A stretch of DNA of 64,000 nt from Candidatus Brocadia sp. (GTDB taxonomy: Bacteria > Planctomycetota > Brocadiia > Brocadiales > Brocadiaceae). The stretch is from NCBI GenBank assembly GCA_013360945.1, contig JABWAQ010000022.1, forward strand, positions 1 to 64,000, given 5' to 3'. Positions within the stretch are counted from its first letter, which is position 1. Every line of letters starts with the position of its first letter. This document shows, one piece after another, positions 28,137 through 38,056 of the stretch. Under the pieces are notes generated by a model. The model saw only the letters and a list, made by a program, of their open reading frames with translations. It was not told the DNA's origin and made no database searches. The translations under genes and the position numbers were made by a program.

Positions 28137-28230
28137 CAGTTCACCCCCCTCCCCTATCCCCTCCCACCGGGGGCGGGGAAAAACACTTCCTCCCCCTCGA
28201 TGGGGGAGGTCAGGTGGGGGTGCTGAACTG
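28137..28230. repeat. CAGTTCA-bounded GC-rich repeat, copy A
   Basis: CAGTTCA at the left end and TGAACTG at the right end bound a 94-base element made of C-rich then G-rich blocks with an inner CCTCCCCCTCGATGGGGGAGG palindrome-like stretch. A shorter 54-base version occurs at 35559-35612. It lies upstream of ppa. Confidence 0.75.
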
Positions 28231-32062: not shown

Positions 32063-32449
32063 TTACGCCATGTTTACACAATAACTCCATTTCCAATCTT
32101 CGGCTTTTGCTACAAAACCTGCTTTAACCGGATTGTTTATAACATACCGAACAACACGTTCTAATTCCTTTCCATCGCGGACAACGTGATCATAGCTTTC
32201 GTGTTGCCAGAATGTACCCGTACGGTGAAGAATTTTATTTGCCTCTCGCGCAGTCGATCCTTTTATTAACCGAAGAATATCAGTCACTCGATACCGTGCA
32301 GTTGTGCTCGTAGTACGAGCTTTAGCTCGTATAGATGAGATATAATCATGCCTGACAGTAAATACAAGGTGCACATGATTAAGCATGATACAGTATGCAA
32401 GCAAATCATATTCTTTTTTATAAGGGGGAATTATAACCCACTGCGTCAA
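32063..32449 (-). pseudogene. REP-associated tyrosine transposase (Y1, IS200-like), 5'-truncated
   Basis: The frame carries the HUH motif in AYCIMLNHVHLVF and the family C-terminus FWQHESYDHVVRD ... RYVINNPVKAGFV, diagnostic of RAYT single-copy transposases, which act on REP hairpins. About 40 N-terminal residues of the family are missing; the frame opens with a TTG and an in-frame stop lies eight codons upstream. A palindrome (TACGAGCT-TT-AGCTCGTA, 32314-32331) inside the gene encodes residues out of place in the family, so a repeat seems to have inserted in frame. It is probably inactive. Confidence 0.75.
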
Positions 32450-33121: not shown

Positions 33122-35437
33122 TTACTTGTGAAGGCCGAAAAAAATGCCTCCCGGAAGTGAACCTTCCTCCGGATCGATCTCACAGATGCCGCCAAGGCAG
33201 GCAGATTCCTGTGCGCCTGCTGTGGAATCTTCCCTTTCGTATATCACAATATGAGAAAAATCAATACCGGGAAGATTTTTGGTCCGCAGGATGTATTCAT
33301 CTGCGGTGATTTCTTCAAAAGGTGCAAGCTGATACACCGTTTTTGACTTCGGCAAGAATGATAACCCACCGAGCATGTCCCAATTTTTGTAAAGCCAATG
33401 TGCCGTCTCAATCCATTCATCTTCCGCCACGGATACCGTGACAGAAGGATTATGTTCGGTGTAGTTCTCCTTGACCATTTTCCAGTATTCGAGCTGGCTC
33501 ATAGCATTGAGGTCTTCTCTCGTGATGCTTCCTTCGGGGGATTTTACCGGAAATTCCAATACATACGTGGTGGCCGTTGCCACGTCTTGTCCAACCTCCG
33601 GATAGTATGGGAATTTTTGTTCTTTTAGCATGGTGAACAACGGATCCTTTGCGGAGATACGGATTCTGCGGGTATAATATCCGGCAAACCTGGGGTGCAT
33701 GCCCGAAGCAGCGTCAACAAGCTGAGAAACGGTTCCCGAAGGTTTCACACAGGTTGCTGCGGCAGATTCGCTGATACCGAACCGCCTGGCATAGATATGG
33801 TTAATTTCCAGGGCATGGTCTCTGAGTTTTGCCAACATCTGCGGATCGCGTACTGCGGGGGAATCCCATTGCCCGGTAAGAGAGACCCCCAGAAGCCGTT
33901 CCTCTTCACAGTTCTTCTTCCACTCCGGTGAAAGATAGGGAAAGTCCGTTAACATGGCTTGGTAGGTAGCGAGGATTGAAGCGATCCTGATTTTTTTCAG
34001 TAAGTCTGTTTCCGTATCGTCCGGACGGGCAACGACCTCGCTCAGATTGCAAAACTGCTTTGAACGCAGGACAATCTCTCCGCAGGGATTGATACCGCTG
34101 GTCATCCAGTGCGGCTCGAATTTCTTCCAGCGACGGTCAGGGATTTGTTTCGGCAGGCTGCCACGGTTAAACAATCCGCGTTCGCCGGTCCCCGCCATTG
34201 CCAGGGCGAGCCACTCCTTCAGGAAATCGGTGGCCTTCGGTTTTGCAATATAAACGGCGGAATTATTCGCCATCATCCGCTGCGGTTCATTGATATAGAA
34301 ATAGCCGCTCTTGGCCTGGCGCATGTCATCGTCATCAAAATCAGACAATGAAATCAAGGCAGCCCGGCGTACTCCTCCCATTTCTACCATCTCACCGATT
34401 TTGCAGATAATATCATGCACGTCGATGTTGCGCAAACGTTTACCCTGTGCGCCGAGGATTTTTGTGCGCGCATAATTCAGTAAGGATTGCAGTGGCCCAG
34501 GACCAGAGCTGCGTCCGCCCATAGTATGCAAACGGGACCCTGCAGGCCTGACCTGAGAGTAGTCAAACGGTATATCCTTCCCTTCATACCAGGCGCAGAG
34601 TCCGGCCTTGAGTGCATTTGCCCAGCCTTCCTTACTATCTCCAACTCTGTGCACGGGGAGTAATTCGCCCGTTTGCCTTCGAATGATTGGCAGTTGTTGA
34701 ATATTTTGGCTCTCCACGGAGAAACCTACTCCAGCGCCGGACATCAAAAGGAACATGATTTCTGACAGATCTTCGAGGCGGGAAGGGGCAATGTACGAGC
34801 AATTGTATGCCGCAACATTGTTCGCCCGGGCCGCCTTGCCGGCAGACCACAGGAGCCGCATCGAAGGCATCACGTGTTGATTCAGGATCGCTTGTTCGAT
34901 CTCTTCATACTCCTGCGGGCTTAAGCGGTTGCCTAAAATTTCCTGCATGAAACGCATGTACCGGCCGACTGTTTCAATCCATGTCTCGCGCCTTCCTTCT
35001 TCCTCGATCCAGCGGGAATACGTCCGGTAATAGATAAACTCTGCAAGGACGTTGGAAAAATACTTTTTGCTTTCTGTCACAAGTTGTCTGACACGGTCAG
35101 GAACGGCCAGGGTTTTTTTGCGGATTTCCGCCCGCTCTTGCCGGTACAGAATGTACGCCTTTGCCGTCTTGGGGAATTCAAGCAGGATCAATGTCTCTTC
35201 AACAAGGTCCTGAATTTCTTCAACGTGTGGAATATGAGCTGCCGGATAGTGCTTGTTGAGTCCTGCCACAACCTCATCCGAGACTCGTACGGAGTCATTC
35301 CCCGGATCACCTTCTTTGCTTGCCTGCATAGCCCGGCAGACTGCGTTCGTAATATGTGCTTGGTCGAAAGGTACGACCCTTCCGTCCCGTTTTTTAACAT
35401 GAGTAAATTTGTTCTGTATCGTAGTATGATTTTTCAT
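33122..35437 (-). CDS. nrdJ: Adenosylcobalamin-dependent ribonucleoside-triphosphate reductase (class II)
   Basis: This enzyme makes deoxyribonucleotides without oxygen, using B12 to form a thiyl radical. The 771-residue protein has an N-terminal ATP-cone (about residues 10-100) giving allosteric control. The catalytic core carries C213 (AYNCSY), N450PCGE454 with the radical C452, and C463. A C-terminal redox pair sits in CLGGIC (747-752). The layout resembles the monomeric RTPR type, with an added ATP-cone. The upstream region was checked for a cobalamin riboswitch and none was seen. No clear ribosome site precedes the ATG. Confidence 0.93.
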   Translation of the reverse strand: MKNHTTIQNKFTHVKKRDGRVVPFDQAHITNAVCRAMQASKEGDPGNDSVRVSDEVVAGLNKHYPAAHIPHVEEIQDLVEETLILLEFPKTAKAYILYRQERAEIRKKTLAVPDRVRQLVTESKKYFSNVLAEFIYYRTYSRWIEEEGRRETWIETVGRYMRFMQEILGNRLSPQEYEEIEQAILNQHVMPSMRLLWSAGKAARANNVAAYNCSYIAPSRLEDLSEIMFLLMSGAGVGFSVESQNIQQLPIIRRQTGELLPVHRVGDSKEGWANALKAGLCAWYEGKDIPFDYSQVRPAGSRLHTMGGRSSGPGPLQSLLNYARTKILGAQGKRLRNIDVHDIICKIGEMVEMGGVRRAALISLSDFDDDDMRQAKSGYFYINEPQRMMANNSAVYIAKPKATDFLKEWLALAMAGTGERGLFNRGSLPKQIPDRRWKKFEPHWMTSGINPCGEIVLRSKQFCNLSEVVARPDDTETDLLKKIRIASILATYQAMLTDFPYLSPEWKKNCEEERLLGVSLTGQWDSPAVRDPQMLAKLRDHALEINHIYARRFGISESAAATCVKPSGTVSQLVDAASGMHPRFAGYYTRRIRISAKDPLFTMLKEQKFPYYPEVGQDVATATTYVLEFPVKSPEGSITREDLNAMSQLEYWKMVKENYTEHNPSVTVSVAEDEWIETAHWLYKNWDMLGGLSFLPKSKTVYQLAPFEEITADEYILRTKNLPGIDFSHIVIYEREDSTAGAQESACLGGICEIDPEEGSLPGGIFFGLHK

Positions 35438-35558: not shown

Positions 35559-35612
35559 CAGTTCACCTCCCTCCCCCCTCGATGGGGGAGGTCAGGTGGG
35601 GGTTCTGAACTG
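35559..35612. repeat. CAGTTCA-bounded GC-rich repeat, copy B
   Basis: This 54-base version of the element at 28137-28230 has the same CAGTTCA and TGAACTG ends and the same CCCCTCGATGGGGGAGGTCA core. It lies between nrdJ (5' end) and the 3' end of the GTPase-partner gene. Confidence 0.75.
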
Positions 35613-35639: not shown

Positions 35640-36560
35640 CTAATCTTTTCGCATACCTGAATCTCTTAAACGTTTCAGCTTTTTACCTATATGAAGCAAG
35701 GATTTAAACCGGGGCAAAAATTGACTGAGGATGTGGGAGGCAACATTTCCCTTGAATGTTTTGGCCTGGCTTATGTCCCCTTTCTTCCGTGAATCAAAAC
35801 GATCCACGGGATCTTCCGAAATCTTCCCGAAAGTCCTTTCCCTGTCACTGACAACAAGTGAAGTGAGGCGTTCCGGCCCTGCAGCGCCCACAGCATTTTT
35901 TCTCTTTGAATGGACTCCTGCAGCAGCTATAACGCGGAAGTCAAAGTTTTTGGCCATTTCCCGTGTGGCGCCAAAGGCAAAATCAATGCACGTGTGGTTT
36001 GATGCAGTTATGAGACGGGACATTTCATTCAAACCAATTCTATCAAAGGGAAGGTATGCCGGCTCATGTAGTGACAATTTCTCAGTGATGGAATCCGGCG
36101 TTTCCGTTAATTTTGTAATCGATTCATCCTGCCGGTCAAGTTTGAGAAAATAATCTTCCGATGCACGGCGAACCACCTCATCCGCGCCAGAAAAGTCTAT
36201 TTTCCCCCACACATTTAAGAAATCCTTACTATCATAGTTAGCCAACATCCGGGGAAGGATAAACCAAAAACGCCTCCTGTGTTCACGCGGAACACCGATT
36301 CCCTGCAAAGAGTAAATATCACGACCTTCCTTGTCTTTGTGTTTTGATAAACCACAACTGACGAGAAATGTCATCTCCGGATAGTTTAAGCAGTAAAGAG
36401 GCGAAACGGATGACTTGCTAAAAGCGCCTTTGTCTTTATCATATAAATTGTAAAGTTTATTTAATGCCTTAAGGCTTTCCGGTGAAACTTTGGAAGGAAT
36501 GATCATCCACCGGTAATCTTTGGATAAGGAACGGGAATACAAGAGTTCCTGGTATATCAT
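35640..36560 (-). CDS. Hypothetical protein paired with a GTPase
   Basis: I do not recognise this 306-residue protein with confidence. It is soluble, starts YQELLYSRSL and has a central region with FFILPR-like aromatic segments (RRRFWFILPRMLANYD) and a basic C-terminal tail (KKLKRLRDSGMRKD). Its start overlaps the end of the upstream GTPase gene by four bases (ATGA), so the two are made together in fixed ratio. The opening resembles what I recall of GTPase-associated N-terminal domains (GAP1-N type) in bacterial NTPase conflict systems, but this is a weak resemblance needing a profile search. Confidence 0.6.
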   Translation of the reverse strand: MIYQELLYSRSLSKDYRWMIIPSKVSPESLKALNKLYNLYDKDKGAFSKSSVSPLYCLNYPEMTFLVSCGLSKHKDKEGRDIYSLQGIGVPREHRRRFWFILPRMLANYDSKDFLNVWGKIDFSGADEVVRRASEDYFLKLDRQDESITKLTETPDSITEKLSLHEPAYLPFDRIGLNEMSRLITASNHTCIDFAFGATREMAKNFDFRVIAAAGVHSKRKNAVGAAGPERLTSLVVSDRERTFGKISEDPVDRFDSRKKGDISQAKTFKGNVASHILSQFLPRFKSLLHIGKKLKRLRDSGMRKD

Positions 36561-37630
36561 GCGATCCGCTTTACCCTTTCCAGCGCCTTCGTCAGGAGCG
36601 GCTCTATGTGTGGTTCAAACCGGCTTAAAACCTCGCAGTCTTTATTTTTTTCTTCCAGGACAGCCCTGGCAATGCTTTCGGCGTCAGGCTTACGCGTAAT
36701 CAGTGACCAAATTTTATTTACCAGTCCGGCCTTCTTTAGCGCTTCAGAAAGTTCTTTCTCGCGCTGTTTTATACTCTTGTGGGCCTCCGCCTTCATTTGT
36801 TTTAATGTCTGCCCTAAACAATAAAACAAGACGTGTTCTGCGTTCAGAGGAGATGGAAACCCCACAATTTTATCTTCAGATTTAAAAGGATATATCATGT
36901 CCCCTGTCGGGATAACAGTCCTCCTGGCATTCCCCTCGCCTACTGCAGAGACGGGCACAATACCGCCTTCCCAGGTTGGATTTTGTTTGCATAAAGAGAC
37001 CATCTGATTGAATACTTCCATGCCGCGCTCTATTAATGGTGCATAATTATTCTCTTTCCACTTAGAATCAACCGTATCTGCCTTGGTAAGCATTATTACA
37101 AATGTCAGGTTTCTCTGAGGATAAACCCTGCTATAAGTTGTAAATATCTCATGGATCCTGCGTGCCCCAGACCGGTGCCTTGCTTCTTTAATATTTGAGT
37201 AGTACGTTAATACGAAGGCATCGGCAACGAGGATAACGGCGTTACTCAACTCAATATGAGACGCCAGTTCAGTAATTTCCGGTTTTATCGTATCTGGTAT
37301 ATCATGCGTATCAGCGGCATCTGTTATATCTGTGAGAATGCCTCCCCGATAATCGATCCAATCAAAATACGTTACCGGATGAGAATTGTAGTAAACAGTA
37401 AAAGGCCACACCGTTGTCTGTTGTGTGCCGTCAGGCCATGTAAATTTATCAGTAAGTGAAAACCGGCTGAAATCGCCAATACTCAGTATGTCCTTATCAA
37501 AATGGTTTACTGAACGAGGGGCAATGCAGAAACCCGCGTCATTTTCACCTGCGTCCCCCAATGTCTCATAAAGCGAAGACATATATGTCGTTTTGCCCGA
37601 TCCAGATATACCTACCATCGTTACTTTCAT
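36557..37630 (-). CDS. P-loop GTPase of uncertain family
   Basis: Numbered from the open GTG at 37642, the 361-residue frame shows G1 GISGSGKTT (11-19), G3 DYRG (97-100), G4 TKAD (186-189) and G5 SAV (232-234), so it is a GTPase rather than an ATPase. After about residue 275 a Lys/Glu-rich helical region follows. No membrane segment is seen. I prefer the ATG at 37630 (MKVTMVG) because GAGAGGTGG lies 8 bases before it. A coupled partner gene follows, and a two-helix membrane protein gene lies upstream. The DO-GTPase/TRAFAC-like groups of conflict systems are candidates, as are polar-growth or motility GTPases. Confidence 0.75.
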   Translation of the reverse strand: MKVTMVGISGSGKTTYMSSLYETLGDAGENDAGFCIAPRSVNHFDKDILSIGDFSRFSLTDKFTWPDGTQQTTVWPFTVYYNSHPVTYFDWIDYRGGILTDITDAADTHDIPDTIKPEITELASHIELSNAVILVADAFVLTYYSNIKEARHRSGARRIHEIFTTYSRVYPQRNLTFVIMLTKADTVDSKWKENNYAPLIERGMEVFNQMVSLCKQNPTWEGGIVPVSAVGEGNARRTVIPTGDMIYPFKSEDKIVGFPSPLNAEHVLFYCLGQTLKQMKAEAHKSIKQREKELSEALKKAGLVNKIWSLITRKPDAESIARAVLEEKNKDCEVLSRFEPHIEPLLTKALERVKRIA

Positions 37631-37671
37631 TTTTTCATCCACCTCTCATAAATTATTTGACACAAATTAAA

Positions 37672-37695
37672 CACGGACGAACAAGTTTGTCCATG
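37672..37695. repeat. REP-like hairpin, degraded third copy
   Basis: CACGGACGAAC and GTTTGTCCATG pair with two mismatches, followed by TCACCC. It matches the hairpins at 28352 and 28481 and lies just upstream of the GTPase start, between it and the small membrane-protein gene. Confidence 0.6.
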
Positions 37696-37762
37696 TCACC
37701 CGAAAATACGCTTAAACAAAATGAAAATTCCTATATGATTCAATTATTTAATAATTCATTTC

Positions 37763-38056
37763 TCAAAGAGAATCTCCTTGTGCTGATGCCTTATTTTTCC
37801 GCCTTATTATTTCAATGGCGATACCAATAGGCCCACCCACAAACGACAGCATGAGCGCCAATTTTGAAAAACCCGTAAGAATCCAAATCAGCGCAAAAAG
37901 GGCAAGTCCTGATATTGCGCCTAAGATAAAAGGATATATGAACTGCAATGGTGCCAGTTGGATTCGGCCCGATGCCTTTTGCTCAAGGGGTTTCGGTGCA
38001 TCTGAAGTTAAGACCCTCCTGCTCAGTTCCCTTTGTCTTTCGATGTTGTCTGACAT
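37763..38056 (-). CDS. Small two-helix membrane protein (97 aa)
   Basis: The protein has about 35 hydrophilic N-terminal residues, then two hydrophobic segments (about 38-61 and 67-85) forming a helical hairpin, and a short basic tail. No motif is recognised. It lies 120 bases upstream of the GTPase on the same strand, with a degraded REP hairpin between. It may be a membrane anchor for the GTPase pair or an unrelated gene. Confidence 0.6.
   Translation of the reverse strand: MSDNIERQRELSRRVLTSDAPKPLEQKASGRIQLAPLQFIYPFILGAISGLALFALIWILTGFSKLALMLSFVGGPIGIAIEIIRRKNKASAQGDSL

Follow-up and report, generated by a model that had tools for sequence, protein, structure and literature searches.

On balance, three adjacent genes of a Candidatus Brocadia-like genome probably encode a reduced, vertically inherited, membrane-linked switch composed of a GTPase and a longin-type regulator, which is a relative of the DO-GTPase/GAP1 systems without their effectors. 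The genes are located on the minus strand of a 64,000-nucleotide stretch of a contig (the window) and are transcribed in the order membrane protein with two predicted transmembrane helices (2-TM protein), GTPase, and partner protein (Table 1). The cassette is related to the DO-GTPase/GAP1 pair, which is predicted to act in conflict systems, but is stripped down, and it looks like a core component of the cell rather than an anti-phage system. The closest named loci are those of Brocadia, Jettenia, and Loosdrechtia, and the genus labels of the loci of other relatives are putative.

Organization of the cassette

All three minus-strand open reading frames of the original prediction are present. 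The GTPase gene had been assigned the start codon GTG 37642, which is not conserved. The proteins of the relatives begin with MKVTM or MKITM, and the true start is therefore most likely ATG 37630. The four-base overlap between the GTPase and partner genes was recovered as the start/stop sequence ATGA, an overlap that recurs at Brocadia, Jettenia, and Kuenenia-like loci. Between the 2-TM gene and the start of the GTPase gene, the minus strand showed no terminator-like site.

Table 1. Positions of the cassette genes and of their features in the window.
Feature	Position	Strand	Remark
2-TM protein	37763..38056	-	97 residues; first gene of the cassette
Transmembrane hairpin of the 2-TM protein	37814..37930	-	residues 43–81; predicted by hydropathy scan
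GTPase	36557..37630	-	357 residues; putative divergent DO-GTPase2-like protein; conserved start ATG 37630
G1 (P-loop)	37589..37612	-	GISGSGKT, residues 7–14
Candidate G2 (switch I)	37424..37426	-	Thr69 of WPxGT; invariant in 16 sequences
G3 (Walker B)	37340..37354	-	DYRGG, residues 93–97; Gly where DO-GTPases have Glu
G4	37076..37087	-	TKAD, residues 182–185
G5 region	36941..36955	-	PVSAV, residues 226–230
C-terminal helical extension of the GTPase	36581..36838	-	residues 265–350; AlphaFold2 model
Start/stop overlap of partner and GTPase	36557..36560	-	ATGA
Partner protein	35640..36560	-	306 residues; no Pfam family
N-terminal domain of the partner	36231..36560	-	residues 1–110; longin/roadblock-like topology; putative distant GAP1-N relative
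Partner signature	36507..36539	-	YSRSLSKDYRW, residues 8–18
Second conserved block of the partner	35916..36065	-	residues 166–215; FAFG motif
C-terminal helix of the partner	35655..35732	-	residues 277–302; basic, amphipathic

Motifs and sequence links of the GTPase

The G1, G3, G4, and G5 motifs (the last as SAV) are all intact, as the original prediction had listed them, and a candidate can now be added for the G2 motif, which that list did not contain. Thr69 is the best candidate, because it is invariant in the alignment of sequences from three sources: Brocadiales, cyanobacterial plasmids, and a gut contig. The helical tail that had been proposed for the protein is present in its AlphaFold2 model.

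The GTPase from the window matches the DO-GTPase2 profile (PF19993) with a score of 22.9 bits, below the Pfam gathering cut-off of 27, and all 14 Brocadiales GTPases match the profile weakly, with the best E-value of 1.2e-6. The cut-off is passed by most of the GTPase relatives on three cyanobacterial plasmids and by several of those in other planctomycetes. In the small set searched, a profile of the Brocadiales GTPases finds those of the plasmids and of the gut contig, at 1e-15 to 1e-24. As judged from these sequence bridges, the GTPase is a divergent DO-GTPase2-like protein.

The Walker-B glutamate in the sequence DxxGE is characteristic of DO-GTPases (Kaur et al. 2020, PMC7159879). It is kept in the GTPase relatives from three planctomycete loci (L136, L138, and L140), whereas the residue following D-Y/F-R-G is glycine in all 14 Brocadiales GTPases and glycine, serine, or arginine after DYRG in the cyanobacterial relatives. 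The Pfam scan of the GTPase gave no Ras match, and the six proteins of the genome matched by the Ras/MglA profile (PF00071) do not include it. The fold search retrieved generic GTPases only, the PHROGs, NCBIfam, and PADLOC libraries returned P-loop noise, and phmmer searches of the PDB with the GTPase and the partner gave no useful match.

Predicted fold of the partner protein

The partner belongs to no family in any of the libraries searched (Pfam, PHROGs, NCBIfam, and PADLOC). Its conservation, expressed as the mean majority fraction, is highest in the N-terminal domain (0.70), followed by the second conserved block (0.62). The tail is variable, yet ends in a basic amphipathic helix, which in the model is a possible membrane contact. 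Within the signature, Ser9, Arg10, Asp15, Tyr16, Arg17, and Trp18 are invariant in Brocadiales, and Arg10 is also kept in the distant partners from cyanobacteria and the gut contig.

The AlphaFold2 model of the partner, calculated from 15 sequences, is of modest quality, with a mean pLDDT of 62.6, and is reliable mainly for residues 30–110, most of which are between 74 and 90. Its topology, b-b-a-b-b-b-a, follows the order of a longin/roadblock domain. The sole significant Foldseek match of the model is TagF (PDB: 9t0n; E 5.4e-4, probability 1.0), with 14% identity, an rmsd of 7.1, and a TM-score of about 0.24. TagF is a type VI secretion protein, the N-terminal domain of which may likewise regulate a P-loop protein in the manner of a longin domain; unlike for TagF, no type VI secretion genes were recognized around the cassette. 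The second match is the PAS domain of SrrB (E 0.011), and chains of TRAPP, GATOR, Ragulator, roadblock proteins, and MglB are found lower in the list (E 0.04–0.3), where PAS domains outrank TRAPP and MglB. Since PAS, longin, and roadblock domains have a common general architecture, the longin/roadblock-like fold class indicated by the model can be assigned with moderate confidence.

The partners were also compared using hhalign, the E-values of which are rough for such single comparisons of small alignments. The first 130 residues of the Brocadiales partners align with the partners from cyanobacterial plasmids (78%, E 1.8e-5), with the partner from gut contig MT836273 (83%, E 8e-6), and, at a moderate level, with a set of GAP1-N domains (62%, E 7.7e-5, about 120 colinear columns). 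Among 150 background proteins, no unrelated one scored above about 19, compared with 32–37 for these three links. The homology to DO-GTPase/GAP1 systems that had been suspected for the two genes is supported by the weak PF19993 matches of all 14 GTPases, by the relatives above the cut-off, and, less strongly for the partner, by the colinearity of its N-terminal domain with GAP1-N.

Searches with single profiles gave no match to the partner. The GAP1-N2 profile (PF20013) matched none of the 15 partners up to an E-value of 5, and the Pfam profile of MglB/roadblock proteins matched none either, the likeness being in the topology of the model. No match to the M and C domains of GAP1 was found in the protein of about 300 residues, the model of which has low confidence beyond residue 216. 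Matches to PDB entries 2be4 and 6jlh (E 0.006–0.04) were discarded, as the profile search gave them no support. The BFVD fold search gave nothing significant, and tblastn searches for the partner in plasmids gave no match.

It could be argued that the partner does not regulate the GTPase but carries a PAS-like sensory domain and acts as an effector or adaptor, the signaling of which is gated by the GTPase. The SrrB match, the architecture shared by the three domain types, and the fast evolution of the partner are consistent with this arrangement. However, the helix after strand 5 is placed in the longin/roadblock fashion, TagF is the only significant structural match, and the profile link leads to GAP1-N, the genes of which pair with those of GTPases, so that we consider a PAS-type effector very unlikely.

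The membrane protein

Two transmembrane helices (residues 43–61 and 63–81) are predicted by the hydropathy scan in the small protein encoded upstream of the GTPase, in agreement with its earlier description as a membrane protein. Its N-terminus contains a conserved ER(H/Q)(K/R)ELS-like motif. The gene precedes that of the GTPase in 12 of the 12 Brocadia, Jettenia, and g4 (sister-genus) loci examined, the flanking genes of which vary by genus; no 2-TM gene is adjacent to the pair in the Kuenenia-like and f5 loci. Unlike in Brocadiales, each of the three cyanobacterial plasmids encodes a 2-TM hairpin fused to the C-terminus of one partner paralogue, and the partners from planctomycete loci L136, L138, L140, and L143 carry a transmembrane segment. 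By analogy, this suggests that the separate 2-TM gene provides the same membrane function as the hairpin fused to the cyanobacterial partners, a link that rests on architecture because the sequence similarity between the two is not significant (best E 0.16).

Relatives outside Brocadiales

Downstream of each of the GTPase relatives of moderate size that we examined is a partner, the N-terminal motif of which is similar. The GTPases encoded on the plasmids of Geminocystis (NZ_AP014816), Calothrix (NC_019728), and Anabaena (NC_019428) are 20–24% identical to that of the cassette over most of the length, and their neighboring partners share the YxR(T/S)...D(Y/F)R and D..(G)R motifs with the Brocadiales partners. 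In contrast to the Brocadiales cassette, each of these loci is plasmid-borne and encodes two partners together with two to three paralogous GTPases. The cluster on the Geminocystis plasmid (L090) is located near an anti-phage dCTP deaminase gene, and that of L092 near genes for CHAT, Hsp70, and dynamin proteins. It is possible that the paralogue clusters L090, L091, and L092 represent an undescribed conflict-type locus of cyanobacterial plasmids.

The same order, GTPase then partner, is found at planctomycete loci L139, L143, L138, L140, and L136. The partners of the first two contain a short motif resembling that of Brocadiales (WRSRSRDQDYQF and LCTRTASKDYFW), and those of the other three are GAP1-N-like. 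A gene for an RND efflux transporter is positioned upstream of the GTPase at L139 (identified by Pfam) and L096 (identified by eye), which could be a coincidence. The unannotated gut contig MT836273.1 (L093, 'Bacteriophage sp.') carries a GTPase–partner pair downstream of a gene for a 927-residue double AAA+ protein, and may be bacterial rather than phage. Among viral contigs, profile A1 found no locus and a wider profile found one weak locus (L094).

Inheritance and selection

A survey of gene neighborhoods had been proposed with the original prediction. In the survey, the GTPase and the partner co-occur strictly 1:1 in the same 21 of 62 Brocadiales genomes, which represent seven genera, and the 2-TM gene accompanies them as described above. 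At all Brocadiales loci examined, the partner gene immediately follows that of the GTPase, the cassette is present as one copy per genome, and the close form of the pair is confined to Brocadiales among 392 planctomycete genomes. At G007:C35 and G022:C1, the GTPase is split into two frames by either a sequencing error or decay. The distances of the GTPase and the partner correlate with r of 0.98 overall and 0.71 within the Brocadia–Jettenia group, as expected under joint vertical descent. Within several anammox genera, the cassette has been inherited vertically. Purifying selection acts on the cassette: the median dN/dS of the GTPase (0.048) is lower than those of the neighboring miaB (0.081), the partner (0.19), and the 2-TM protein (0.21), although the values are rough because dS is near saturation. 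The median dN values of the GTPase and miaB are alike (0.088 and 0.083); the constraint on the GTPase is no weaker than that on miaB. A literature search returned no description of the GTPase–partner pair in anammox bacteria.

Many relatives that are positive for hydrazine synthase lack the pair, including G014, G019, G029, G030, and many f2 and f4 genomes. The pair is therefore not required for anammox, and a role in the anammox core was rejected; for the same reason it is not a general component of the anammoxosome. This bears on the possibility that the cassette is a polarity or trafficking module that marks a pole or an internal membrane such as the anammoxosome, analogous to the MglA/MglB switch of Myxococcus and Thermus (PMC11016934, PMC9481161). 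As in that switch, a small GTPase is paired with a regulator for which a roadblock/longin fold is predicted, and the basic amphipathic tail and the membrane protein would suit such a role. Unlike MglA and MglB, the cassette proteins match neither sequence family, the partner has an additional C-terminal half and tail, and the GTPase is larger and has a helical extension. The absence of a Pfam match for the partner, the exclusion of the GTPase from the Ras-profile matches of the genome, and the hydrazine-synthase-positive relatives without the pair make a polarity module unlikely, and of the earlier comparison with polarity modules an analogy is retained.

The gene neighborhoods argue against the other earlier suggestion, that of a conflict system. 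No conserved effector, no recurrent variable gene, and no further gene common to all was found near the cassette in 16 loci, the neighbors of which were scanned with Pfam in part; the same holds for a recurrent FNIII component. PADLOC gave no meaningful match. The cassette resembles the DO-GTPase2/GAP1-N2 systems (Kaur et al. 2020, PMC7159879; PF19993, PF20013) in that a TRAFAC-like GTPase is followed directly downstream by a partner with a GAP1-N-like N-terminal domain, in the transmembrane segments in or near the partner, and in the occurrence in Planctomycetota. It differs from them in the score of the GTPase below the family cut-off and the replacement of the Walker-B glutamate by glycine, in the size of the partner, which has no recognized M or C domain, in the separate gene for the transmembrane part, and in its single vertical copy, near which no recurrent FNIII component or effector was found.

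A true anti-phage or kin-conflict system of the DO-GTPase/GAP1 type would have its effector elsewhere, or the 2-TM protein would itself be a pore-forming SLATT-like effector. GAP1 systems frequently contain SLATT effectors with two transmembrane helices (PMC7159879), and this parallel, together with the homology to DO-GTPase2 and GAP1-N, gives the conflict reading some weight, as do the plasmid-borne cyanobacterial relatives, one of them near the dCTP deaminase gene. Nevertheless, the single vertically inherited copy, the slow evolution of the GTPase, the lack of a recurrent variable component among the neighbors in 16 loci, the PADLOC result, and the Kuenenia-like members without a 2-TM gene make a conflict system distinctly unlikely. 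The most likely function of the cassette is a constitutive one at a membrane or in the envelope, rather than that of a conflict system with variable effectors.

Proposed function of the switch

In our preferred reading, the products of the three genes would act together as a single GTPase switch at a membrane. Its GTPase would cycle between GTP and GDP states, and the partner, a putative minimal GAP1-N/longin-like regulator produced by translational coupling through the overlapping start, would bind the GTPase and control hydrolysis or exchange. The 2-TM protein would anchor the pair to the membrane, as the fused hairpin may do in the cyanobacterial partners. A role of the partner as a GAP is slightly preferred, because glycine replaces the catalytic Gln/Glu after DxxG in the GTPase and Arg10 of the partner is conserved in the three sources.

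The longin/roadblock-like fold suggested for GAP1-N also suggests a mechanism for this domain; longin is nowhere mentioned in the text of Kaur et al. (PMC7159879). We tentatively raise the possibility that GAP1-N and the cassette partner are bacterial longin-type GTPase regulators and that the DO-GTPase/GAP1 systems and the cassette constitute one large bacterial family of GTPase/longin switches acting at membranes; its Brocadiales member would then be a core regulatory switch of anammox cells, tethered to the membrane, and not a conflict system. With one GTPase, one small partner, and one membrane protein, the cassette is a minimal form of the bacterial GTPase/GAP1 pair and is small enough to be reconstituted; a literature search found no biochemistry of such a pair. 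It is also a candidate GTPase switch in bacteria with an intracellular organelle.

Neighbors of the cassette in the window

A gene for a B12-dependent ribonucleotide reductase (33122–35437, minus strand) is located downstream of the cassette, and is its neighbor in four Brocadia loci only. Farther along the window, there is a gene for a Y1/IS200-like (RAYT-like) transposase (32063–32449, minus strand). The near-palindromic sequence CCTCCCCCCTCGATGGGGGAGG is positioned just downstream of the partner gene (35570–35591) and occurs in a second copy at 28188–28209, where the expectation by chance is 0; the two copies are possible REP-like elements.
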